64,000 nt of DNA, taken from positions 1-64,000 of the forward strand of contig JANDJZ010000057.1 of assembly GCA_027943245.1 (NCBI GenBank). Reading direction: 5' to 3'. The position numbers and the translations under genes were made by a program. Under the pieces are notes generated by a model. It ran no database searches and was not told the DNA's origin. It saw only the letters and a list, made by a program, of their open reading frames with translations. This DNA is from Acanthamoeba sp. SK_2022b (taxonomy: Eukaryota; Discosea; Longamoebia; Acanthamoebidae). Below, piece after piece: positions 6,295 to 20,375 of the stretch (the stretch's first letter is position 1; the number at the start of each line of letters is the position of its first letter).

Positions 6295-6310
6295 ATCACT
6301 CCCACTCAAT
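6295..6310. repeat. Attachment-site direct repeat, left copy
   Basis: ATCACTCCCACTCAAT here matches ATCATTCCCACTCAAT at 20360-20375 with one mismatch. The right copy is the last codons and stop of guaA (read on the minus strand), so the element integrated in the 3' end of guaA and regenerated that end. Sequence just right of this copy becomes AT-rich, marking the element boundary. Confidence 0.8.
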
Positions 6311-6441: not shown

Positions 6442-8727
6442 CTACCGATCCAAGAGAGGAGTGAAAAGGTCTTGAAGAGCTCTATCGTCAAACTTCTCCC
6501 GCTCTCTCTTGTTCGACGGTGGGAAACTCGGGGAGGGAGCGGGACTGCTCCGGTCTTCAATCTCGCCGATTCGGTCCTCGATGTCGGAGACGGCGCGACT
6601 CAAAACATCTTCCGGCACGCCGAAACGGGGCGCGAACTTTTTGAGGGCATCGATACGATCCGATAAGGAGGACTCGCTATCATCCTCGCTGATGCGACTG
6701 GTATTCTCCTCGAACTCTTCTAGCACAGCGGCTTGCAAGGCATGGTTGATGCTGGACGGCAGCCCTTGCGCTGCATCCACTGCATCCACGAGCGTGGAGA
6801 GCATGTCACTCGAACACCAGCGTATAGTGTCCGTGATCGCCTTCTCAAGGAGCTCCAATAATTCGGTTTCGTATATGAATGGCCGCCCATATCCCTTGTC
6901 ACCTAGCCGACAAAATATGTCGATCAAGGCCTCTCCATCCGACCATGCACCAAAGCCCTGCTGTGGATTGCGGGCAATCGCCATAATGCTGTCAGCAAAT
7001 GCCCGCTCGTTCGTGAGCCGCCACCAGTCCATCAATATCCCCAGCCGTTTGGAGTTTGCAGCATCGTTGTATTCAAGCGACCGCGCATCGCCAGCTCGCG
7101 GGCGCCAGTGCGGACGCGTTTCGATCATATCCAGCATGCCAGTGCAGGCTAGGGCGATCTTTGTTTGATCGTCTTCGCTAAGACCGCGCGGATACACAAA
7201 ATCCCACAAACTCGACAACCAGTCTATGGAGACTGCTGTAGGGACAAGACGAATTAATAGCTCTGTGTCCAACAGATAGGATGAGAGATAATCCTTGAGC
7301 GAAGGATTGAGAAAAGAAACCCTTGGTCCGCTGATGTTGACAATGTTGACGAAGCTACCTTCTAGGATGCGAAGGGCTTCTTCGAAGTCCTTAGGCCCGT
7401 GCGGTAGGCCATAGGCTGTGCTCATCGCTGTATGTAAGGGCTCGAAAGACAAGCGAAGCGTGCCAAGGGGCACTCCATACTCCGTGAGAAAAAACATCGC
7501 CATCAAGAGGTGTCTGCACCGATGATCGATGTGTGTCCGGAATGCGGTATCCCAAATCTGGCTAGGGTTATTCAGAGCACCGATAAAGGCCACAGCATAG
7601 TCTGCGGGTTCGATATCACCAATGCGAAATGCATCGGTCATAGCCTCGATGACACGCGGGTTATAGTTCTTGTGATCAACAATTTCCGCAAGCTTCTTGC
7701 TTTCCAATAGCGCACGGATATGCGACTGTGGTGTCTCTGACACGAGTAGATGATTGTAAAGAATCCTCGCCTTAATCCGGCGCGTATAAACACCAACATC
7801 GAGAACGTACTTCGTTACATCGAGGCGCTGGTCGCCAAGATGTTCGGAAACCCTCCGGGCTTCTTCAAAGATGTACCCCCGCGTCGTCAGAATAAAACGA
7901 GCATTTGGGGAGCGACGTACTCGGCTCATGAACCGCGCTAAATCAGAATCCTTGTGCGCCAGAGCTTGCCGGTCGAGGGCAACCCTTCCTAGGAAGTCGT
8001 CGAAAAGGAACACCTGCTTTTTGCTGTCGCTAATGGCCGCGAAGCCGTCCTCTAGACTACGGATGGGAACGAGCTCCCACTCCTCACTCAGGAATGTGTA
8101 ACATAGCATCTCGGCCAGTGTCGTTTTACCAACACCCGGGGGCCCTGAGATGATAAGAAGCCGATGCTTCTCCAGCGTAGCCAGTGATTGATCGAAGCTC
8201 GGGTTTGATGCGTAGACACGGACCTTCTGTTCAATATCTTCTCGCGTGAACGCTGCAAAGGTATGGGCCGCCGCGCGTACGACTCGGTCTAGAACACCCG
8301 CACCTGAAAGCCACAGTTTGATGTGCGACTTGAGAATATCTGGGTACTTCCGGAGAAGACCGTTGAGGTCCTCCGGACCAAAAATATCCGCTTCCGACCT
8401 CAGGCTGGGCCCTATAAGCGGAGTGAGCTTACCCTTTCCAAGTGGGGTGAACTTACAGGAAGTCGCTAAAATGTAGCGAATCGGAGCGAGCTTATCGATT
8501 GAAAATCGCTCACGCTTCATAGTGGCTATCAACTTACCGAACGGCGAACCTTCATAATGCTTCGCCTGTAGAATGACGTTACCATTAGCCTGCGCGTGCC
8601 GGCCATCAATCCCGCCATCCGGCCCTGCGCAGAATGCTTCGAAGCGAAGTCCTTCTTCTCGTCCTATGAGGTCTCGAACAAGATCCTCAAAGTCGGCCGA
8701 TGATAGATTTTTGAAATCGTAACTCAT
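6442..8727 (-). CDS. Mrr-like restriction endonuclease fused to STAND-type NTPase
   Basis: The 761-residue protein starts with a PD-(D/E)XK nuclease domain of the Mrr type: DFEDLVRDLIG (residues 12-22), GPDGGIDGRH with the metal-binding Asp41, and ILQAKHY with Lys56. From about residue 185 there is a P-loop NTPase: Walker A GPPGVGKTT (195-203), Walker B VFLFDDF (239-245) and an arginine-containing strand FILTTRG (278-284), as in nSTAND3 proteins. The remaining ~470 residues are mostly helical, with no repeat family I can name, and probably form the sensor. By analogy with STAND defence proteins, binding of an invader signal would trigger ATP-dependent oligomerisation and DNA cleavage. The start codon overlaps the stop of the upstream AAA_13 gene (ATGA), so the two are co-translated. 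No methylase is nearby. Function is inferred; the domain calls are firm. Confidence 0.85.
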   Translation of the reverse strand: MSYDFKNLSSADFEDLVRDLIGREEGLRFEAFCAGPDGGIDGRHAQANGNVILQAKHYEGSPFGKLIATMKRERFSIDKLAPIRYILATSCKFTPLGKGKLTPLIGPSLRSEADIFGPEDLNGLLRKYPDILKSHIKLWLSGAGVLDRVVRAAAHTFAAFTREDIEQKVRVYASNPSFDQSLATLEKHRLLIISGPPGVGKTTLAEMLCYTFLSEEWELVPIRSLEDGFAAISDSKKQVFLFDDFLGRVALDRQALAHKDSDLARFMSRVRRSPNARFILTTRGYIFEEARRVSEHLGDQRLDVTKYVLDVGVYTRRIKARILYNHLLVSETPQSHIRALLESKKLAEIVDHKNYNPRVIEAMTDAFRIGDIEPADYAVAFIGALNNPSQIWDTAFRTHIDHRCRHLLMAMFFLTEYGVPLGTLRLSFEPLHTAMSTAYGLPHGPKDFEEALRILEGSFVNIVNISGPRVSFLNPSLKDYLSSYLLDTELLIRLVPTAVSIDWLSSLWDFVYPRGLSEDDQTKIALACTGMLDMIETRPHWRPRAGDARSLEYNDAANSKRLGILMDWWRLTNERAFADSIMAIARNPQQGFGAWSDGEALIDIFCRLGDKGYGRPFIYETELLELLEKAITDTIRWCSSDMLSTLVDAVDAAQGLPSSINHALQAAVLEEFEENTSRISEDDSESSLSDRIDALKKFAPRFGVPEDVLSRAVSDIEDRIGEIEDRSSPAPSPSFPPSNKREREKFDDRALQDLFTPLLDR

Positions 8728-10976
8728 GCTGCCGTTTCGTCCACTGCGTCGGTGGCTGTGTTCTCATTCGCAAGTGCTAGAGTAGCTAGCGCTTGTGGCC
8801 CCATCATCATCTCATAATGCGCGAGGTGATTTGTGACTTCGAAGATTCTGCGAAAAATATCGAGATAACGGGTGACCATCGCTTCATCGACAGAAATGTA
8901 CAGGTCATCGTTGAAACTATGCGATCCATCATTCACCCAAGTAAATAGCGAACCACATATTTGCTGGTCGCGACCCTCGAATCTCGCGCAGATGTCATCC
9001 TTATCGAGGTTTCCGAGAATCTTGAAGTAGTTCTCGAGGATGCGTCTTAGCGTGTTTTGGAGCGCGATATTTGATCGGTTCGGCGATCTGACCTCAGCCC
9101 AAAGGAGCTCATAAGAAGTACTGATAGGGTTGTGATTGTAGCTGGTGATTACGGATACATCGTTCACTTTCCGCACGATCCAAAACGTCTCGTGTGCTCG
9201 GCATTCTGTGCCGCGCTTGGGATCGAAAGATACTTCTTTATGGAAGTAGATGTTGTGCGTCAATAGAAAGACCTGCTTAATAAGCCCAGTCCCTCGGCAA
9301 GCCTCATCGAGCACACGTTTGATCAGAGCACTGACGATAAAGAGCACATCGCTGTCAAGGCTAGAGACAGGATCGTCGAACACGACGACTCGCTCCGCAT
9401 TTATCCCGCTTGCATTGATACTGCCTCTAATGAGGTGGTAAAAGTAGAGGAAAGTGATGAAGGTGCGCTCTCCCTCGCTAAGGGTGGTAGCAGCTTCGCT
9501 CCCATCTCCTCTTACAATTTCATAGAGGTTTTGATGTTGGCCAGCGGTCGCGAGGCGGAAACCCGTAAAGCCGAACGATCTTAGAATGGCGTTAATTTCC
9601 GTAACGGTTGGCTGAACACTCGTTACTTCGCGTTCCAACGCTGCAAGTTCGTTACTGGCCTCTGCAAGCGCTGCTCGCTTTGAAGCAAGCCCGGTCGTCA
9701 GGCCAGTAACGGCACGATCAAGCCCCCTTTTCGCGTTATCGTGGTCAGTAAATGCGAGCCTCGACTCCTCAAGTAAACATCTCCAGATTTGCGATATAAG
9801 AGTGGCCCGCTCGGTCGCCAGATTGTCAACTGTCGCATTGTGCTTACCTATCTCAGTATTTGCGTTGGAGATAGCATCTTGAAGGGAGGCGACGATTTCA
9901 CCAACGGGCTCAAGCGTGACTTGCGAACTTGCCTCTTTCCGTTTGCGGTCGATTTGCCGAAGATTCAACTCTAACCGTGCTGAGAGTCGATCGATATCGG
10001 CGCGAAACGCTACCACATCAAGATACTTGCTTCCCGCACTGTGGATCAACTCGAGCCGAGACAAAAGGGTTTTGGAGTGAGCATCATATGCGTCCCTTAT
10101 GCGTTCGATTGCTGCGATATCAGCAAGATAGGTTTCGTCAAAGTAGTCATTCAGTTTTGTTTTTAGAGAGTCGTTCATCTCCTGCTGGCAGAATGGGCAC
10201 TGCGGCCCCGCTTCGTCTACATAACCAAGGCCTTGCCGCACCCAGTCGCTGTTGCCGAGGCGACGTATAAGTGCAGCGATGTCAACGTCTTCTTTCCCTA
10301 CGATTTTTTTCGAGAGAACTGCCGAGCCTTCAAGGACCACAAGGTCGTTGGCGTCAAACACTACCATGGGTGTAAGACGTTCGAGCCCTTTCTCAAAAAT
10401 TGTCAGCGCACGTTGTTTGAGCTCGTCAAGCGGGACAATCTCAGCAGAGTTCTGCGCCCACTCCATCAGGATCTTGTCGCAAAAGTTAGCCTTTGAACTT
10501 CGGAAGCCAGTGAATGCCTCTTGAAAATAAGGATCGTGGACTGTCTTGATCTCCCAGCATTTCTGTTCTATGCCAGTCCTTAAAGTCTGGAGTTCCCCGA
10601 GCTTGCCGGAGCTTACGTCACCCAAGGTATTTTGGAGTTGAGCAATGTCTCGGGTTAGGGATTGCACTTGGGCGTTCGCCGCTTCGATCTTGGCAAGCGT
10701 TTCAGCCTCCGCCTGCCCCAGCGTGAAAATGCCCGGCATCTGTTGAGCGAAATTCCGAGAGCAGAAGTCACTGTTGTAGACAAGACGCTCCAATGGCTGA
10801 CCGGTCCACGTAACAGCGCAGGCGGGTTTTGAAGCGGGGTCTGCAATGACACGCGAGATAGTCGTTTTACCCGATCCATTGGTACCAAAAATAAAATTGA
10901 TTGAGCGAAGTCCTGCCAGACGTTGCGTATTTGCCCCGTAACTTGCTTCGTTTGTTATAGAAATATCAGATAGCAT
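8724..10976 (-). CDS. AAA_13 (RloC/PrrC-like) ATPase with zinc-hook motif
   Basis: The 750-residue protein has an SMC/Rad50-like ATPase head split by a coiled coil. Walker A is GTNGSGKTT (31-39), the ABC signature LSEGE is at 499-503, Walker B VVVFDDP is at 530-536, and the H-loop His is in LLTHN (574). The coiled-coil region carries CPFC (260-263), a CxxC like the zinc hook of Rad50 and RloC. After the head, RRILENYF (644-651) and NDGSHS (His686) supply an Arg-xxx-Glu ... His arrangement reminiscent of the anticodon-nuclease triad of PrrC/RloC. It may therefore be an ATP/GTP-gated tRNA nuclease, or a DNA-end sensor regulating the partner nuclease. A GAAAGGGGA ribosome-binding site precedes ATG 10976. 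It is the first gene of the cargo operon, in the place where traI follows traJ in IncP plasmids. Confidence 0.85.
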   Translation of the reverse strand: MLSDISITNEASYGANTQRLAGLRSINFIFGTNGSGKTTISRVIADPASKPACAVTWTGQPLERLVYNSDFCSRNFAQQMPGIFTLGQAEAETLAKIEAANAQVQSLTRDIAQLQNTLGDVSSGKLGELQTLRTGIEQKCWEIKTVHDPYFQEAFTGFRSSKANFCDKILMEWAQNSAEIVPLDELKQRALTIFEKGLERLTPMVVFDANDLVVLEGSAVLSKKIVGKEDVDIAALIRRLGNSDWVRQGLGYVDEAGPQCPFCQQEMNDSLKTKLNDYFDETYLADIAAIERIRDAYDAHSKTLLSRLELIHSAGSKYLDVVAFRADIDRLSARLELNLRQIDRKRKEASSQVTLEPVGEIVASLQDAISNANTEIGKHNATVDNLATERATLISQIWRCLLEESRLAFTDHDNAKRGLDRAVTGLTTGLASKRAALAEASNELAALEREVTSVQPTVTEINAILRSFGFTGFRLATAGQHQNLYEIVRGDGSEAATTLSEGERTFITFLYFYHLIRGSINASGINAERVVVFDDPVSSLDSDVLFIVSALIKRVLDEACRGTGLIKQVFLLTHNIYFHKEVSFDPKRGTECRAHETFWIVRKVNDVSVITSYNHNPISTSYELLWAEVRSPNRSNIALQNTLRRILENYFKILGNLDKDDICARFEGRDQQICGSLFTWVNDGSHSFNDDLYISVDEAMVTRYLDIFRRIFEVTNHLAHYEMMMGPQALATLALANENTATDAVDETAA

Positions 10977-11147
10977 TTTATCCCCTTTCGCGCCGATTGC
11001 GAGTCCCCCCGAACGCGAGAATTAGCGAAACGGACTTAAGCATATGCACTACGAAGCCACCTTGCGCCCAGCGTCGCAAAGGATATTCACTCGTTTTTGA
11101 GGAAACCGCATCCAGCTTGGGCCGTCACGACCGACGCAGCTTGGTCA

Positions 11148-11333
11148 TCATTGCTTCGCTGCGGATCCCGAACATGTACAGTCGCACTCAAATGCCTCTT
11201 TCATCTGTCGTAAAAGAATCGACAACTCATCCAAACTTCCATCGCGACGTACTTCGGCAAGCAACTGTTCTGAATAGGCCGGATTGGCGCGGAGATATTC
11301 GACCATTACCTCAATATGTGATCTGTCTTTCAT
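11148..11333 (-). pseudogene. Truncated addiction-module antidote (orphan)
   Basis: The 61-residue frame begins MKDRSHIEVMVEYLRANPAY and continues into a helix ending LSILLRQMKEAF. This is the N-terminal third of a HigA-like putative addiction module antidote protein. The helix-turn-helix part that normally follows is missing: after MKEAF the frame turns into unrelated sequence (ECDCTCSGSAAKQ) and stops. No toxin gene is visible upstream in 11334-11524. It looks like a leftover of gene replacement between traJ and the cargo operon. The family call is from sequence memory. Confidence 0.55.
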
Positions 11334-11524
11334 TTCGCGATACCCCCATCCCTACGGAACAATCAAGCATGCAGAATTTTGATATATTTCATGTTGCCCA
11401 CCGAATTTTATTGGATTGCACAATCCAAAGTACATCAAAATGGATATGTATTGCAGGTTAAACCAGCAACCAATCCCGAAGAAGCATCAAACAGAAAACC
11501 CGAAAAACTGAGCATAACCCTTCG

Positions 11525-11908
11525 TCATTTTCTGGAAAAGACTATAGCGCTCATTTTCTCTCGAATTCCCGCCTGTAATTCGCGAAATTCGATCATCATC
11601 TGCTCAACGTCAACGGGCCTTGCACCTTGACCGCGCTTCTCCGCGAGCCACAACTTCAGCAACCCGGCCACCCGGCCAAGGTCGCCGTTCACGCGCACAA
11701 GATCGGCCACGGCTGACAGGTCAGCCCTTGCCCGAATAGGCGCGTTCAGTCCGGCCGCTTTCATGTAGGCGGACAACGACAAACCGGACTGAGCAGCCCG
11801 GTCGGCCAGCTCGGCCTTTTCGTCGTTGTTCACCCATACCTCTATTCGTTGGCCTCGGGGTCGGGTTCCTCGGCCCTTCCCTTTCGGTTTCTGTTCTTCG
11901 TCACTCAT
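11525..11908 (-). CDS. traJ: TraJ-like relaxosome protein (oriT binding)
   Basis: The 127-residue protein has a basic N-terminus, then RIEVWVNNDEKAELADRAAQ and SGLSLSAYMKAAGL, the ribbon-helix-helix region shared by RP4 TraJ and MobC-type proteins. The C-terminal half (VADLVRVNGDLGRVAGLLKLWL) matches the conserved mobilization-protein helix. TraJ binds one arm of the inverted repeat next to nic and recruits the relaxase. The gene points away from the oriT at 12018-12117, exactly as traJ does in RP4. In RP4 traI follows; here the next genes are an antidote fragment and the cargo operon, so the relaxase is missing and must come from a helper. Confidence 0.85.
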   Translation of the reverse strand: MSDEEQKPKGKGRGTRPRGQRIEVWVNNDEKAELADRAAQSGLSLSAYMKAAGLNAPIRARADLSAVADLVRVNGDLGRVAGLLKLWLAEKRGQGARPVDVEQMMIEFRELQAGIREKMSAIVFSRK

Positions 11909-12150: not shown

Positions 12151-12272
12151 AGAATCGCCATTAAAACATGGCGTAATCGCGTACATTCGCGCTAATTCGC
12201 ATACATTCGCGTAGCATCGCATTAATCAATTCTTCTAATCGCATAGAATCGCGTACATTTGCATAGAATCGC
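12151..12272 (+). repeat. 10-bp phased array of TCGC-ending units next to oriT
   Basis: Between 12171 and 12220 five consecutive 10-bp units each end in TCGC (TAATCGC, CATTCGC, AATTCGC, CATTCGC, GCATCGC). After a 22-bp gap, four more units follow to 12272 (CTAATCGC, TAGAATCGC, TACATTTGC, TAGAATCGC). AGAATCGC at 12151-12158 is a further outlying copy. A 10-bp period places every unit on one helix face. RP4 has its TraK-wrapped region on this side of oriT, so this may be a DNA-wrapping or bending region for an accessory protein. No traK homologue is recognisable. Confidence 0.75.
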
Positions 12273-13116: not shown

Positions 13117-13170
13117 CAATAATCAAACCTCGGACGATGACAAAATGAGGTATTCGGTATGGAAATAGAA
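13117..13170 (+). promoter_or_regulatory. 54-bp repeat over the trbJ translation start (copy 1)
   Basis: These 54 bases, including the GAGG Shine-Dalgarno sequence, the trbJ ATG and four codons, match the reverse complement of 18546-18599 except at about five positions. Both copies put the start codon at the same place (ATG here, GTG there). Inside is the dyad ACCTC...GAGGT. It looks like a shared operator/leader that couples expression of the trb and rep/alpA transcripts. Confidence 0.8.
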
Positions 13171-13950
13171 TCGCAAAAAACGTCGGCTTATGCCGCCCGA
13201 AAATTCGGTCGAGGCGCGGCGCTCGCTCTGGCAATGGCAAGCGCAGGCCTTGGTGTAAGTCTCTACATGGCACCGGCTCCGGCCTATGCCATCTACTGCT
13301 CGAACTGCTCGACGTTCTATCAGCAGATGTACGAGTACGCCGAAGCGGTCAACACGCAACTGAACACGGCCCAGCAGTTGCAGACGCAGATCCAGCAGTA
13401 CGACAACATGATTAAGCAGGGCATGTCACTGCCCAGCCGCATGTTCAACACCATCACTGGCGACCTTCAGCGCGTGGCCAGCGTCTACAACTCGGCGCAG
13501 TCGCTCGGCCGCAACATCAGCAATCTGGACGAACAGTTTCGCCAGCAGTTCAAGGGCTATGACAGCTATCTGAACTCGATTGGCCAAGGGCAAAACAACA
13601 TGCCGCAGCGCTATCGGGACTGGGCACAATCCGGCTTCGATAACGCCCGCACGGCCATGCAGGCCGCTGGCGTAAATACCAGCACATTCGAGGATGAGAA
13701 CGCGATGCTGGATCAGTTGGTGAGCCGTTCGCAGTCGGCCGTTGGCCGTCAGCAGGCCATTCAAGCCGGGAACGAGATTGCGGCGCAGAACGTGCAGCAG
13801 CTCCAGAAACTGCGCGATCTGGTGGCCACGCAAATCACCCTGCAAGGCAACTACATGGCGCAGCAAAACGAACGGCAGTCCGTTAGCGATGCCTCCGAAC
13901 AGCAATTCCGCAGCCGTGAAAATACACGCGGCCCGTCTGAGGGGTTCTAA
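13159..13950 (+). CDS. trbJ: P-type conjugative transfer protein TrbJ (VirB5-like)
   Basis: The 263-residue protein has a long N-terminal signal peptide ending APAPAYA, then IYCSNCSTFYQQMYEYAEAV and long alpha-helices (TQLNTAQQLQTQIQQYDNMI), matching TrbJ/VirB5 proteins, which act in the periplasm or at the pilus tip. The C-terminal tail, NTRGPSEGF, is shared with the next gene product. Start ATG 13159 has GAGG eight bases upstream, inside the 54-bp repeat. It heads the operon trbJ-trbK-like-trbL-108 aa gene. All other mating-pair genes (trbB-I) are missing from the element. Confidence 0.9.
   Translation: MEIESQKTSAYAARKFGRGAALALAMASAGLGVSLYMAPAPAYAIYCSNCSTFYQQMYEYAEAVNTQLNTAQQLQTQIQQYDNMIKQGMSLPSRMFNTITGDLQRVASVYNSAQSLGRNISNLDEQFRQQFKGYDSYLNSIGQGQNNMPQRYRDWAQSGFDNARTAMQAAGVNTSTFEDENAMLDQLVSRSQSAVGRQQAIQAGNEIAAQNVQQLQKLRDLVATQITLQGNYMAQQNERQSVSDASEQQFRSRENTRGPSEGF
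13903..13950 (+). repeat. 48-bp repeat at the end of trbJ (copy 1)
   Basis: This stretch matches 14088-14135 at the end of the next gene, in the same frame, with differences concentrated in a central block of about 12 bases. The outer 14 and 20 bases are identical. It encodes the shared peptide ending FRSRxNTRGPSEGF. Confidence 0.9.
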
Positions 13951-13952
13951 CC

Positions 13953-14135
13953 ATGATGATTTCTAAGGCGCTGATTGCCGCCCTCTGCCTCGTCTCGGCC
14001 CTTGGTGGGTCGGCACTGACGGCCGTAGTCGTCACGAACACCGCCGCGCCGGAATGCGCAGCGGTCGGCAATGGCCATCAGGATGACCAATTCCGCAGCC
14101 GCCCAAACACTCGCGGCCCGTCTGAGGGGTTCTGA
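13953..14135 (+). CDS. trbK: TrbK-like small membrane or exported protein
   Basis: The 60-residue product has one N-terminal hydrophobic segment (ALIAALCLVSALGGSALTAV) and a short hydrophilic tail. Its place between trbJ and trbL is that of trbK, the entry-exclusion gene of IncP plasmids. RP4 TrbK is a lipoprotein; here no good lipobox is seen, so exclusion activity is uncertain. The last 16 residues repeat the TrbJ tail with few changes, and the corresponding 48 bp of DNA is duplicated. It lies 2 bp after trbJ and 2 bp before trbL. Confidence 0.6.
   Translation: MMISKALIAALCLVSALGGSALTAVVVTNTAAPECAAVGNGHQDDQFRSRPNTRGPSEGF
14088..14135 (+). repeat. 48-bp repeat at the end of the trbK-like gene (copy 2)
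   Basis: Second copy of the stretch at 13903-13950, in frame with the end of the trbK-like gene. See the trbJ copy for the match. Confidence 0.9.
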
Positions 14136-14137
14136 CT

Positions 14138-15781
14138 ATGCGACGTTCAACCGTTTTCGCGCTTGTCGGCGCGGTGCTCTTGCTATCTGCAACTAGTGCG
14201 ATGGCTGCCGGGGTCGATTTGGCGCAGAGCAACACGTCTATGAACAGCCTTCTGCGGCTGATTCAGAACGCTTCAAACCAATGGGCACCGCGCCTGCATG
14301 ACTACGCCTTGTGGCTCTTGGGATGCCTTGCCGTCATCCAGTTAGTTTGGACTTTTGCTCCTTTGGTCATACGCGGAGCTGAACTGGGCGACATCCTACA
14401 TGAGCTGGTGAAATTCATCCTCGTGATAGGGTTCTTCTATGCGATGCTCGATCACGCGACCGAGTGGGGCGGGGCCATCGTCAACAGCTTCCGGCAGGCC
14501 GGGGCGCACGCGGCAGGGTTGGGTAGTGCGGAGCTGATGCCGGGGGATATGTTCTCAACTGCTGTGGACTTTTCACGGCAGGTGCTGACGGCAGGTGTTT
14601 CGATGTTCAGCCCAATCACATCGGTTGTAGTGGCCGTATCTGCATTGATCGTCCTGATGTGTTTCACGTTTATAGCGGCTCTGGTGTTCGTGACGCTCGT
14701 AGAGGCCTACGTCATCATCAATGCCGCCGTCCTGTTCATGGGTTTCGGTGGCTCTCAATGGACACGCGAATATGCACTGGCTCCCATTCGCTATGCCGTT
14801 GCGGTAGGTGCCAAGCTGTTTGTCCTGACTCTGATTGTGGGGCTGATCATGCAGGTTTCCGCAGAATGGTCGGCAGCCTACACCAACGACGAAGCGTCGT
14901 TGATGACCTTGGTTGGCCTGTCTTTGGTGTGCGCCTACCTGACCAAAACTATCCCTGAATTGATCGGCGGCATGATTAACGGCACGTCGATGGGCGGCGG
15001 CTCCGCAATTGGGGGCATGGCCGCAGCCGGTGCAGCCGGTGCGGCGGCCGCAATCGCTACTGTTGCAACAGCTGGGGCAGCAGCCCCGGCTGCTGGAGCA
15101 CTAGGGGCCGCGGGAACTGGCGGAGGCGCTGCCAGTGCCGCGGGTGGTGGACTGGCCTCCGCATTGAACGCCAGCATGGCAGGCGGCAGTACCGCAGGGG
15201 GCATCGGTGGTGCGACGGGCGTCGGCAGCGCTGGAATTGGCGCAAGCACAGGAGGGGGCAGCGGTGCGACCGCAAAGGCCGCAGGTTCTCGCGTCGGGGG
15301 CGGCGCCGCGTCAGGATCGGCGAATTCAGTGTCGGCGGCCGCTTCGCCTGCTAGCCAACAATCAGGTAGCGGCTTGAAACAAGCCGCCAAACAGGCCGGA
15401 AAAGCTGCGAAGGGTGGTGACGACGATATGGGTCAGCAAGCCGTCGCGCAGCAACGGCAGATGACACCAAAAGAAGGGACTGGCGGCAACGGCAAGGCTG
15501 TTGCGCAGGGCGCAGAGGTGGCCACACGGGCGCTTGGCGTGCTGGGCGCTATCAGCGTACCCGGCATGGAAAGCTCCCACGGGCTTTCGCTCGGGGGCAC
15601 CGGATCTCCCCCTCCTGTCCCCGGCAGTGACAGTCCAGCGCCTGATGACGGCGCTGAGCCGATTGCACAAGCGGAATCCAACATTATTCGTCCGGCATCG
15701 GACACCACTAGCACCGGAGACGTCGGCGCGCTCAATGTGCCCGGCATGGCTTCTAGTGTTAACTCTCAATCGGAGACGTAA
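14138..15781 (+). CDS. trbL: P-type conjugative transfer protein TrbL (VirB6-like)
   Basis: The 547-residue protein has a signal sequence (ending ATSAMAAG), then six or so membrane segments between about residues 60 and 270 (for example WLLGCLAVIQLVWTFAPLVI and YVIINAAVLFMGFGGSQW), the TrbL/VirB6 core. From about residue 275 it is a long Gly/Ala/Ser-rich low-complexity tail ending GALNVPGMASSVNSQSET. TrbL is the polytopic inner-membrane channel component of the P-type secretion system. In IncC plasmids the functional equivalent, TraG, is the target of entry exclusion and is the protein mimicked by SGI1. Keeping TrbL without the rest of the channel therefore suggests it is assembled into a helper's apparatus. 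Confidence 0.9.
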   Translation: MRRSTVFALVGAVLLLSATSAMAAGVDLAQSNTSMNSLLRLIQNASNQWAPRLHDYALWLLGCLAVIQLVWTFAPLVIRGAELGDILHELVKFILVIGFFYAMLDHATEWGGAIVNSFRQAGAHAAGLGSAELMPGDMFSTAVDFSRQVLTAGVSMFSPITSVVVAVSALIVLMCFTFIAALVFVTLVEAYVIINAAVLFMGFGGSQWTREYALAPIRYAVAVGAKLFVLTLIVGLIMQVSAEWSAAYTNDEASLMTLVGLSLVCAYLTKTIPELIGGMINGTSMGGGSAIGGMAAAGAAGAAAAIATVATAGAAAPAAGALGAAGTGGGAASAAGGGLASALNASMAGGSTAGGIGGATGVGSAGIGASTGGGSGATAKAAGSRVGGGAASGSANSVSAAASPASQQSGSGLKQAAKQAGKAAKGGDDDMGQQAVAQQRQMTPKEGTGGNGKAVAQGAEVATRALGVLGAISVPGMESSHGLSLGGTGSPPPVPGSDSPAPDDGAEPIAQAESNIIRPASDTTSTGDVGALNVPGMASSVNSQSET

Positions 15782-16999: not shown

Positions 17000-17078
17000 G
17001 TTCCTAATAGACGGATACCGGTTCCTAATAGACGGCGAAATGGTTCCTAATAGACGGTTTCAGGTTCCTAATAGACAC
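17000..17078 (+). repeat. Four iterons
   Basis: Direct copies of the 15-bp word GTTCCTAATAGACGG at 17000-17014, 17021-17035, 17043-17057 and 17064-17078 (last copy with two changes at its end). They are presumed RepA-binding sites for initiation and copy control. Confidence 0.9.
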
Positions 17079-17178: not shown

Positions 17179-17193
17179 CCGTCTATTAGGAAC
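17179..17193 (-). repeat. Inverted iteron containing the repA stop codon
   Basis: CCGTCTATTAGGAAC is the exact reverse complement of the iteron word. The TAA stop of repA (17186-17188) lies inside it, so the last codons of repA are constrained by the binding site. Confidence 0.9.
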
Positions 17194-18244
17194 CGCCCAG
17201 CGGTTCCGACGAGGAATTGCGGTGCCTCATGACCAGTAGAGGGCCATCCTTCCCCGCTTCTTCGCACAAGGCATATTCAGGCAGGTCATCGGCTTTGATG
17301 ATCCCGCGAAGGAAGAAACAGAATTTTTTGAACGAGCCACCGCTTCCACTGCGTTCGTAAAGGGTCTTGAACGCCCATTTAGCGCTATCCCTGCCTGCGG
17401 CACGGCGAGCCAGTCGGTAGATAAAGCGTCCTATGCCCGGCTCGATCAGGAAGTAGTCCCGATGTACTGTAAGTACCTCCGGCCGCTTGCCCTCGGTGAC
17501 TTCTCGATAAATCCACTCCGGGGCTTCAATCTCGACAGAACTTATCTTCTTGGTGTCCGTGCGTGACAGAACACGATAGCGCGCGATCAGCCCCTCGGCT
17601 TCGGTTGTCCGGAACTTGCCGCTTTCGCGCACTGTCTTGATGGTAGTACCCCGCAACCGATCTAGCGCGGCTTCCACTCCCTGAACCTGACTACTACCGT
17701 TACCACGTCGGGCAAATCTGAGGATGTCGCTAACATGCAGCCGAAACACTCTCCCCGGCTTGCCACCCTTTCCTTCTCGATAGCGGTTCATAGCTTCGGT
17801 CAAGTGAGACACCATCATCAGCACAATGTCGTAGTCCCAAACGGAGGCCATTCCGTGCGCTCCTGCGGACACTTCCACGTATCCATCCGGCAGGTCATAG
17901 CGGATCAGTTCTCCGGCTCGCTTGTCCTTCTTGGACAAACGGAACACGGCCACATCCATGACGCTGCGATTGTCGCGGCCGCCCACGTCATAAAGGCTGG
18001 GCACAAAAAAATCTGGCTGGGCGTCGACTTGTGGAGGCCTGCGGACAAGTGACAACGCATTGTCCCGCTCTTTCGCCCTTTCCATCTGTTCATGCACGGT
18101 CGAGACGTTAGACGGTCTACCGCGTTCAGCAGCCGCAGTTCGGTCACTGTTCCGCTTCCTGATATTTTCAAGGCGTTCCAGTAGCCCGCCAGAGTCGCCT
18201 ATTACCGCGCCTATGGGCTTGAGACCGCTGTTTCGGCTACTCAT
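17186..18244 (-). CDS. repA: Plasmid replication initiator protein (RepA, RPA family)
   Basis: The 352-residue protein begins with a variable basic region (to about residue 75) and then has the conserved initiator core: PDFFVPSLYDVGGRDNRSVM, MASVWDYDIVLMMVSHLTEA, GRVFRLHVSDILRFARR, GVEAALDRLRGTTIKTV and FLIEPGIGRFIYRLARRAAG. This resembles the replication initiator protein A family (winged-helix, iteron-binding). Iterons and a DnaA box are directly downstream. The start ATG 18244 has only a weak ribosome-binding site, so a later start is possible. An intact initiator in an integrated element suggests it can replicate after excision, as SGI1 does when its helper is present. Confidence 0.85.
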   Translation of the reverse strand: MSSRNSGLKPIGAVIGDSGGLLERLENIRKRNSDRTAAAERGRPSNVSTVHEQMERAKERDNALSLVRRPPQVDAQPDFFVPSLYDVGGRDNRSVMDVAVFRLSKKDKRAGELIRYDLPDGYVEVSAGAHGMASVWDYDIVLMMVSHLTEAMNRYREGKGGKPGRVFRLHVSDILRFARRGNGSSQVQGVEAALDRLRGTTIKTVRESGKFRTTEAEGLIARYRVLSRTDTKKISSVEIEAPEWIYREVTEGKRPEVLTVHRDYFLIEPGIGRFIYRLARRAAGRDSAKWAFKTLYERSGSGGSFKKFCFFLRGIIKADDLPEYALCEEAGKDGPLLVMRHRNSSSEPLGGS

Positions 18245-18843: not shown

Positions 18844-20052
18844 TCAGTCCTTGAGGCGGGGCTTCCTGATTGTCCACTCATCGATCATGTCCGCCCAATC
18901 CTGAAGCATTGCCCGGCGCTGATCGCGGTACTCGGCCTTGTTGTAGACGGCGCGAACCCCCTTCTGTTCGTGCGCAAGGCACTTCTCGATCCAGTCAGTG
19001 TTATAGCCCGCCTCATGTAGAAGCGTGCTGGCTGTGCGCCGCAGGTCGTGCGGTCCGAACTTGCCAAGCGACTGCCCTTCCTTCTGGGCCAGACGATAGG
19101 TCAGCGTGAGCACCTGATTGAGCGTCGCGCTGCTCATCGGCAAGTCCGAGTCATAGCGCGATGGCAGCACGTACTCCGAGCCGCCCGCGAAGGTTTTCAG
19201 AGCTATGAAAATGTCGAGCGCCTGCCTAGACAGGAACACCAAATGGGGGTTGCGGCGTTTCATCCGCTCCTTGGGGATTGTCCAAAGCGCTTCGGTGAAA
19301 TTGATCTCGCTCCACGTTGCGTTAGTCAGTTCGCTTTTGCGTACCATCGTCAGCAACAGCAGCTTGGCAGCCGCTCGAATTGAAGGTGTGGTGCCGATAC
19401 GCTCCATGTACTGGTACATCAAGCCGATTTCATCGGGCGTCAGTGCTCGATCTCGCGGCTCGAACTTGGCGATGGTCGAGGGGCGCACCAGATCGGCCGG
19501 GTTCTCGACCTTCTGGCCGCGCTCGATGGCCCAGCGGTAGACCTGCAAGACGATCTCTCGCGAATGCACCGCTGTTGCCGGTGCGCCTCGTTCTACGATG
19601 ACGTCTGTCAGCGCTCGCAAGTCCTCATGGGTAATTTCTATCAGTTTCGAGTTGCCAAATTTCGGCTTTAACTCGCGTTCGTAGACGGAGCGGCGCATGT
19701 CTCGGGTATTGGGCGCCATCTGATAGCCGCGCAACCATTTCTCGGCCCACGCGCCGAATGTCTCTGCATCCTTGACGCGGGCTTTGTCCCGCGCCTTCTC
19801 CTTGGCTGGAGATTTCCCTGCGGCGATCATCTTCTTGGCTTCGCCCAGCAGTTCGCGGGCTTCCGCTAGCGTGATCCCTCCGACACCGTAACGGCCGAAG
19901 GTGATGGTCTCCTGCCTGCCGTGGATCGAGTAGTTGTAGCGGAATGAAATCGACCCCGCAGGCGTGATGGCCACGTAGAGGCCGTCACGGTCATTCACTT
20001 TATAGAGCTTGTCCTTTGGCTTGAGGTTGCGCAGCTTGGTATCAGTCAGCAT
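18844..20052 (-). CDS. Tyrosine integrase, P4/DUF4102 type
   Basis: The 402-residue protein (ATG 20052, the start matching the family; a longer frame to 20109 is less likely) has the N-terminal arm-binding domain (MLTDTKLRNLKPKDKLYKVN ... TFGRYGVGGITLAEAR), a SAM-like core-binding domain and the catalytic domain. The catalytic residues are visible: Arg in TMVRKSEL, His/Arg in HDLRRTAS, His in LAHEQKG and the Tyr nucleophile in VYNKAEY. It lies about 300 bp from the attachment site in guaA. It should carry out integration and, with an excisionase such as the AlpA-like protein, excision of the element. Confidence 0.93.
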   Translation of the reverse strand: MLTDTKLRNLKPKDKLYKVNDRDGLYVAITPAGSISFRYNYSIHGRQETITFGRYGVGGITLAEARELLGEAKKMIAAGKSPAKEKARDKARVKDAETFGAWAEKWLRGYQMAPNTRDMRRSVYERELKPKFGNSKLIEITHEDLRALTDVIVERGAPATAVHSREIVLQVYRWAIERGQKVENPADLVRPSTIAKFEPRDRALTPDEIGLMYQYMERIGTTPSIRAAAKLLLLTMVRKSELTNATWSEINFTEALWTIPKERMKRRNPHLVFLSRQALDIFIALKTFAGGSEYVLPSRYDSDLPMSSATLNQVLTLTYRLAQKEGQSLGKFGPHDLRRTASTLLHEAGYNTDWIEKCLAHEQKGVRAVYNKAEYRDQRRAMLQDWADMIDEWTIRKPRLKD

Positions 20053-20077
20053 GGTCGGGTTGGGTTTCCTCTCAAAA

Positions 20078-20227
20078 ATACCATGCTCAAAAAGCCCCCG
20101 CACCCTCAAAAAAAATTATTTCAGGACAATGGGTTACATAAATTCGATACCATGAACACCCCATTAAAGGCGGCATGGTATCGAGTGCCGAACATGGCAT
20201 CAGGTTCAAATCGTACCATGTACCATG
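20078..20227. repeat. TACCATG boxes between integrase and guaA
   Basis: Copies at 20078-20085 and 20147-20154 (ATACCATG), 20174-20181 (inverted), 20213-20220 and 20221-20227. Two more are at the far left end (6369-6388). The cluster in the 308-bp integrase-attachment interval suggests arm-type integrase sites, perhaps also autoregulation of int. Confidence 0.5.
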
Positions 20228-20359: not shown

Positions 20360-20375
20360 ATCATTCCCACTCAAT
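20360..20375. repeat. Attachment-site direct repeat, right copy, in guaA
   Basis: ATCATTCCCACTCAAT; its first bases include the guaA stop, and the rest encodes the last residues (IEWE). It is paired with 6295-6310. Confidence 0.8.

Follow-up and report, generated by a model that had tools for sequence, protein, structure and literature searches.

The window analysed here is the whole stretch of 64,000 nucleotides (nt) at positions 1 to 64,000 of contig JANDJZ010000057.1, from the assembly of Acanthamoeba sp. SK_2022b (GCA_027943245.1). It holds a guaA-integrated island whose cargo is a pair of large genes on the reverse strand, and it is this pair that we consider: the operon's first gene (8724..10976, 750 amino acids, aa) encodes an anticodon nuclease of the RloC type, and the second (6442..8727, 761 aa) a protein that joins an Mrr-type nuclease to an nSTAND3 domain, hereafter Mrr-nSTAND3. 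An earlier note on this DNA had described two large genes coupled by ATGA, and both open reading frames (ORFs) lie exactly where it placed them, sharing an ATGA start/stop codon overlap at 8724..8727 of the reverse strand through which the two genes are likely to be translationally coupled. A promoter and terminator scan of positions 10900-11600 returned no candidates.

In Pfam, the 750-aa protein is matched over nearly its full length by AAA_13 (residues 11-713, 2.8e-174), and the 761-aa protein by Mrr_cat (2.7e-05) and nSTAND3 (4.6e-50). The top PADLOC models were PDC-S06 (1.5e-287) for the former and PDC-S73 (8.7e-142) for the latter, where the match covers the N-terminal 524 residues (model positions 1-527 of 752). 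These are two distinct PADLOC candidate entries and not a joint system, the "S" in each presumably standing for single-gene. Searches of open-access literature yielded no description of this pair, or of nSTAND3/Mrr together with RloC, and the earlier note, too, named no system with exactly these two. Both proteins belong to known classes, and it is their coupling and the pattern of partner swapping described below that appear to be new.

The RloC-type protein

The features that defined RloC proteins are ABC motifs, an insert with a CXXC zinc hook and a C-terminal Arg-X3-Glu-X36-52-His, often with Ser before the His (PMC2610378; this and the other papers cited are drawn on in excerpt). The window protein carries C260-x2-C263 (zinc hook CPFC, residues 260-263; 10188..10199, reverse strand) and, as its predicted anticodon-nuclease site under the same definition, Arg644-X3-Glu648-X37-His686 (8919..9047, reverse strand) with S685 before the His. 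All five residues (C260, C263, R644, E648, H686) were invariant in 18/18 aligned RloC relatives; in a 47-sequence alignment C260, C263, R644 and H686 were invariant (47/47) and E648 was kept in at least 90%. The ABC ATPase motifs (Walker A, signature, Walker B and His switch) are present as well, with G31, N33, G34, G36, K37, S500, E503, D534, D535, P536 and H574 invariant in the 47-sequence alignment and E501 and G502 kept in at least 90%. The AlphaFold2 model (mean pLDDT 81.0, pTM 0.44) places long helices on either side of the zinc hook, the hook region proper being of low confidence, and its top Foldseek matches were Rad50 and condensin, with Lamassu (LmuACB) and retron ATPases lower, all at low TM-scores. 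The RloC/PrrC-like ATPase with a CPFC hook proposed earlier is therefore borne out by the AAA_13 match and the invariant C260-C263 pair; by sequence it is fair to call the protein RloC, its nuclease activity being predicted.

Excerpts of the work on RloC describe an enzyme that DNA breaks activate and that excises the wobble nucleotide of tRNA (PMC2610378, PMC3874168). Linear DNA activates it and sustains its activity, break inducers elicit the response and tRNA is cleaved, such that RloC is both break sensor and effector tRNase, with its own internal switch (PMC3874168). For what activates RloC in infection, the same excerpts offer only proposals, namely host DNA degradation by the phage or a restriction enzyme (PMC2610378, PMC3874168). 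A 2013 survey, again in excerpt, placed a subset of RloC-like genes next to restriction-modification (R-M) and DOC genes (PMC3710099).

The Mrr-nSTAND3 protein

The Mrr-type PD-(D/E)XK nuclease domain takes up approximately residues 1-150 (8278..8727, reverse strand; E14, D41, Q54-x-K56; Pfam match to residues 6-61) and the nSTAND3 NTPase domain residues 172-327 (7747..8214, reverse strand). E14, Q54 and K56 were invariant in 63/63 sequences of the nuclease-domain alignment and D41 was Asp in 62/63, so that an Mrr-type nuclease fused to a P-loop NTPase, as first noticed from the letters, holds. The least conserved, C-terminal part (residues 491-761; 6445..7257, reverse strand) is mostly helical by prediction and is likely to be the sensor. 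There is a further PADLOC match (1.1e-61), between the first 159 residues and the N-terminus of the Argonaute-associated TIR model, and because of it we regard the Mrr module as common to STAND and Argonaute systems.

The pair as cargo of a guaA island

The carrier is a 14.1-kb element of GIsul2 type with TCCCACTCAAT at both ends, as an att core at the cargo end (6300..6310) and another at the 3' end of guaA (20365..20375). GIsul2 inserts at the guaA 3' end, at GAGTGGGA, according to the excerpt of PMC9376610, and TCCCACTCAAT contains the reverse complement of that site. From the att core at 6300 to a NikA/TraJ-like mobilisation gene beside the cargo slot (11525..11908, reverse strand; NikA-like above the cut-off, TraJ model below it), the pair are the only large genes.

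By megablast of 5,426 E. coli genomes, three had any match to the two genes and two had both. In these two (MB06233 and S1-ISR-02-A) the pair is 99.5-99.6% identical and lies at guaA in a backbone of the same kind, with no further annotated gene between it and the mobilisation gene. The cargo slot was also compared in seven other E. coli island copies (L142-L148). It held traI, a PIN gene and others in three (SC467, WAT and 210205630), with traI adjoining the mobilisation gene, a KAP-family NTPase in two (PSS-15 and tcmA_3, with an identical protein accession), a P-loop protein apparently broken by an insertion sequence in one (LT883142), and a DarT-like gene with a macro-domain gene in one (KCJ3K291). 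Given these contents, the cargo of the slot is exchangeable and often of a defence type, and traI can occupy the position of the pair, which upholds the earlier description of a sole cargo at the traI position. The island also shows that elements of this family, known as carriers of sul2, have a place where such cargo can be swapped.

Neighbours of Mrr-nSTAND3 in other genomes

In a collection that represents each species by a single genome, 102 Mrr-nSTAND3 loci were confirmed, and we surveyed the neighbours at the best 80 of them. Gene models at these loci are the longest non-overlapping ORFs rather than curated annotation; 24 of the tblastn matches end before residue 600, and one of these (L050) is a truncated frame. 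Neighbours were called RloC-like at 60 bits or more against a profile of the 18-sequence RloC alignment. Among ORFs of at least 300 aa, 6/90 immediate neighbours were RloC-like versus 1/328 others (one-sided p 5e-4), and the sole "other" (L015), separated from Mrr-nSTAND3 by one 240-aa ORF, was counted as non-adjacent. PDC-S06 was the best model and CxxC was present for all seven, and the full triad was found by pattern in six, the exact pattern not being matched by the regular expression in L021. On a tree of Mrr-nSTAND3 (79 rows, those below 600 aa excluded), the RloC label (eight rows including the window) requires six changes. Partner labels were assigned manually, on the basis of BLAST clusters (single linkage, E ≤ 1e-5, in which coiled coils can chain) and the Pfam matches of representatives, and the RloC label takes in downstream (L013), divergent (L015), convergent (L053) and 554-nt-distant (L068) neighbours.

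The preference extends to ATPases of the SMC/ABC type. Of 76 adjacent proteins that reached 380 aa, Pfam was run on 74 (the long downstream ORFs L021:10628-13966 and L040:10315-14001 being left out), with 76 controls drawn at random from the 205 eligible non-adjacent proteins of the same loci. SMC_N matched 30/74 adjacent proteins versus 6/76 controls, AAA_21 22/74 versus 7/76, and AAA_13 16/74, the last being absent from the 25 families listed for the controls. PADLOC at 1e-15 returned, for the adjacent set, Old (9), AriA (9), GajA (up to 9; these overlap), LmuB (8), PDC-S06 (6-7, depending on the model) and PDC-S46 (6), and in the control list no model exceeded 4/76 (AriA). A P-loop regular expression (7/90 versus 3/328 and 10/90 versus 6/328) was set aside as proof of association since it missed Pfam-detectable ATPases, and the Pfam counts were used instead.

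A gene of 300 aa or more, in the same direction and no further than 30 nt away, lay upstream at 15/80 loci and downstream at 4/80. Neighbours of other kinds include S8 proteases (L069, matching IetS; L087, S8 by Pfam), HipA (L016, and L034 by BLAST cluster), class I short Argonautes directly upstream (L019:6392-7942, L027:6508-7962, L084:6397-7905), a Fic protein gene with a 3-nt gap to Mrr-nSTAND3 on a Sphingorhabdus plasmid, and, close by, a SIR2 protein (L083) and a T5orf172-domain protein (L053). In E. coli MLI107 (L090:8001-14344) the upstream gene is Avs2-like, of 1,352 aa and without a Pfam match, and overlaps Mrr-nSTAND3 by four bases. Neighbours that are not defence-like occurred too: a ribonucleotide reductase (L039), RACo (L065), transposases (L024, L049) and an integrase (L061). 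On the strength of this survey, Mrr-nSTAND3 is what stays constant, and its recurrent neighbours are several, RloC among them. The nearest relatives of the window Mrr-nSTAND3, in Pseudomonas (L008, L010 and L002), have a convergent 817-aa ORF alongside, which matches PDC-S46 in L008 (4.1e-273), the other two copies falling in the same BLAST cluster.

The two proteins were also compared across lineages through the 120 best hits of each. In five further lineages the matches of both share longest-contig size (10,164, 35,058, 53,454, 85,548 and 166,637 bases) and contig count, from which each of these pairs very probably lies on one contig and may be adjacent there. The six pairs, with that of the window, co-diverge: their identities correlate (Mantel r 0.78), and of the 720 label permutations only one is as high, the true order itself. 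Searches of viral contigs and phage records for Mrr-nSTAND3 gave three relatives among the matches listed and two, respectively.

Comparison with known systems

The Rad50-like ATPase, CxxC zinc hook and Arg-X3-Glu-X36-52-His of RloC (PDC-S06) are all in the window protein; however, excerpts describe RloC as rarely linked to type I R-M (PMC2610378, PMC3874168), whereas here its gene overlaps that of Mrr-nSTAND3. The latter protein resembles PDC-S73 over its N-terminal 524 residues, but that entry is separate from PDC-S06 and the window protein is paired and has a C-terminus beyond the matched part. With AVAST (Avs4, Avs5) it shares a STAND NTPase, an N-terminal effector (nSTAND3 and Mrr_cat in the window) and a helical C-terminus. 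Its structural matches were 8dgf, 9nc9 and 9jap, and Avs5 also carries nSTAND3 (PMC12931631, in excerpt). Yet at 761 aa it compares with a 1,534-residue Avs4 chain and has a second, tRNase-type gene attached; AVAST membership was rejected because no PADLOC Avs model was among the nine families matched at E ≤ 0.01.

PrrC is an anticodon nuclease in one locus with a type I restriction enzyme, a DNA-cutting system, and so offers a parallel in which anticodon nuclease and DNA cutter share a locus (PMC2610378, in excerpt). Unlike the window protein, PrrC has no zinc-hook insert, and the R-M enzyme keeps it silent, while the predicted DNA cutter here is a STAND protein. In Lamassu, an SMC/Rad50-like ATPase (LmuB) is joined to a toxic effector (LmuA). 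Although LmuACB is among the Foldseek matches of the RloC-type model, LmuB models reached 3.9e-12 against 1.5e-287 for PDC-S06, and the window ATPase bears its own tRNase-type site. Membership of Lamassu was rejected, PDC-S06 beating LmuB by more than 900 bits and the adjacent genes being Mrr-STAND and mobilisation genes instead of LmuA/LmuC. As to the carrier, the element shares with GIsul2 the guaA 3'-end site and core sequence, and trbL is named in GIsul2 (PMC9376610, in excerpt), but its cargo is a defence-type pair.

A possible relay and its alternatives

Taken together, the results support the earlier suggestion of a two-gene cargo that is probably anti-phage. The reading we prefer, tentatively and with somewhat less than even confidence, is that the pair is a mobile operon for two-step defence, in which Mrr-nSTAND3 would recognise infection and cut DNA, leaving ends that RloC would sense before cleaving tRNA. 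The C-terminus of Mrr-nSTAND3 would detect a phage or infection product, the STAND domain would oligomerise and thereby switch on the Mrr nuclease, the nuclease would make double-strand DNA breaks, and RloC would read those same breaks and cleave tRNA, halting translation. What was observed towards this relay is the overlap, the domains, the intact active-site residues, the cargo position, the occurrence of this same pair in two E. coli genomes, and the SMC/ABC-type neighbours that Mrr-nSTAND3 prefers. A DNA-cutting partner is sensible for RloC because DNA breaks activate it (PMC2610378, PMC3874168), and a nuclease in its own operon would directly supply the breaks that activate RloC in natural infection. 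The enrichment of Rad50/SMC-like ATPases beside Mrr-nSTAND3 fits this cutter-plus-end-reader logic. More broadly, although we consider this rather unlikely, Mrr-nSTAND3 may be a portable "break-maker" repeatedly attached to break-reading SMC/ABC-type ATPases (RloC, OLD/GajA-like, LmuB-like and perhaps PDC-S46), a receptor that would turn phage recognition into DNA ends, which the adjoining end-sensing toxin would turn into cell shutdown. CBASS and type III CRISPR are the comparison cases for a shared trigger with an exchangeable executioner. If one STAND nuclease is indeed coupled to many unrelated toxins, that principle would become testable outside these two systems.

Several results weigh against a regular partnership of the two genes, and some of them speak for a serious rival, to which we give a substantial but minority chance: two independent defence genes in one cargo slot, each working alone, their overlap reflecting compact mobile-element design. 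An RloC-like gene adjoins Mrr-nSTAND3, or lies one ORF from it, at only 7/80 loci. Scanning six plasmid loci from close relatives with the profiles of both proteins turned up no close RloC adjacent to Mrr-nSTAND3; on the Phaeobacter plasmid pP24_b both are there, ~14.6 kb apart. Mrr-nSTAND3 was absent from the examined flanks of 45 viral-contig RloC loci, and none of 40 genomes among the 80 with Mrr-nSTAND3 had a relative of the window RloC at E ≤ 1e-20, in a search made without a positive control and at a cut-off too strict to recover even the diverged RloC-like neighbours in L013, L014, L015, L018 and L021. At E ≤ 1e-60, one of 385 genomes of one class had an RloC relative, and that locus (L139) showed no Mrr-nSTAND3 in its examined flanks. 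On these two genome searches a fixed partnership was rejected: of the conserved pair for which the earlier note proposed a neighbourhood check, enriched adjacency and co-divergence stand and a constant association does not. The separate PADLOC entries, the close relatives of each gene that lack the other alongside, and the many unrelated defence genes beside Mrr-nSTAND3, as expected in defence islands, are all in keeping with independent genes; yet the ATGA coupling, the co-divergence of six pairs, at least six changes to RloC-type pairing on the tree and the enrichment directly beside Mrr-nSTAND3 relative to the rest of those loci speak against them.

The HipA, Fic, protease and Argonaute neighbours do not fit the relay, and favour either defence-island packing or a general trigger or guard role. 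In the latter case, Mrr-nSTAND3 would be a guard or regulator that restrains, or activates by contact, an upstream toxic partner (RloC, OLD, HipA, Fic or a protease), with DNA cleavage secondary. The chemical diversity of the partners, and their preferentially upstream, tightly coupled position, point that way, but the nuclease site is kept in nearly all aligned relatives, convergent arrangements exist too, and RloC has its own break-responsive switch (PMC3874168), leaving this explanation unlikely. The order offered first in the earlier note, with the ATPase sensing DNA ends and the STAND nuclease executing, draws on RloC being a known break sensor (PMC3874168); however, RloC bears its own effector site as well, and it is the STAND protein that contains the variable, sensor-like region and has many unrelated effectors as partners. 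That order is probably wrong, and we regard it as very improbable.

Other features of the element

Beyond the mobilisation gene, the backbone encodes TrbJ (13159..13950, forward strand), TrbL (14138..15781, forward strand), a replication initiator protein A (RPA; 17186..18244, reverse strand) and a tyrosine integrase (18844..20109, reverse strand). The replication module varies under the same cargo, with RPA (17186-18244) in the window versus a RepA helicase and an IncQ-type RepC in MB06233 and S1-ISR-02-A. Four 16-nt direct repeats at 12175-12262 and two of 34 nt at 17000-17076, beside the mobilisation and replication genes, may be origins of transfer or replication. A 53-nt direct repeat (87% identical; 13903-13955 and 14088-14140) ends in ATG in each copy, the second at the trbL start. 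Within the guaA island family, two copies carry a kasugamycin acetyltransferase gene, and Tet(A) lies close to one copy. The contig itself is of enterobacterial type within a 45-Mb, 1,129-contig assembly, which is too large for a single bacterium and is probably a mixed or host assembly.
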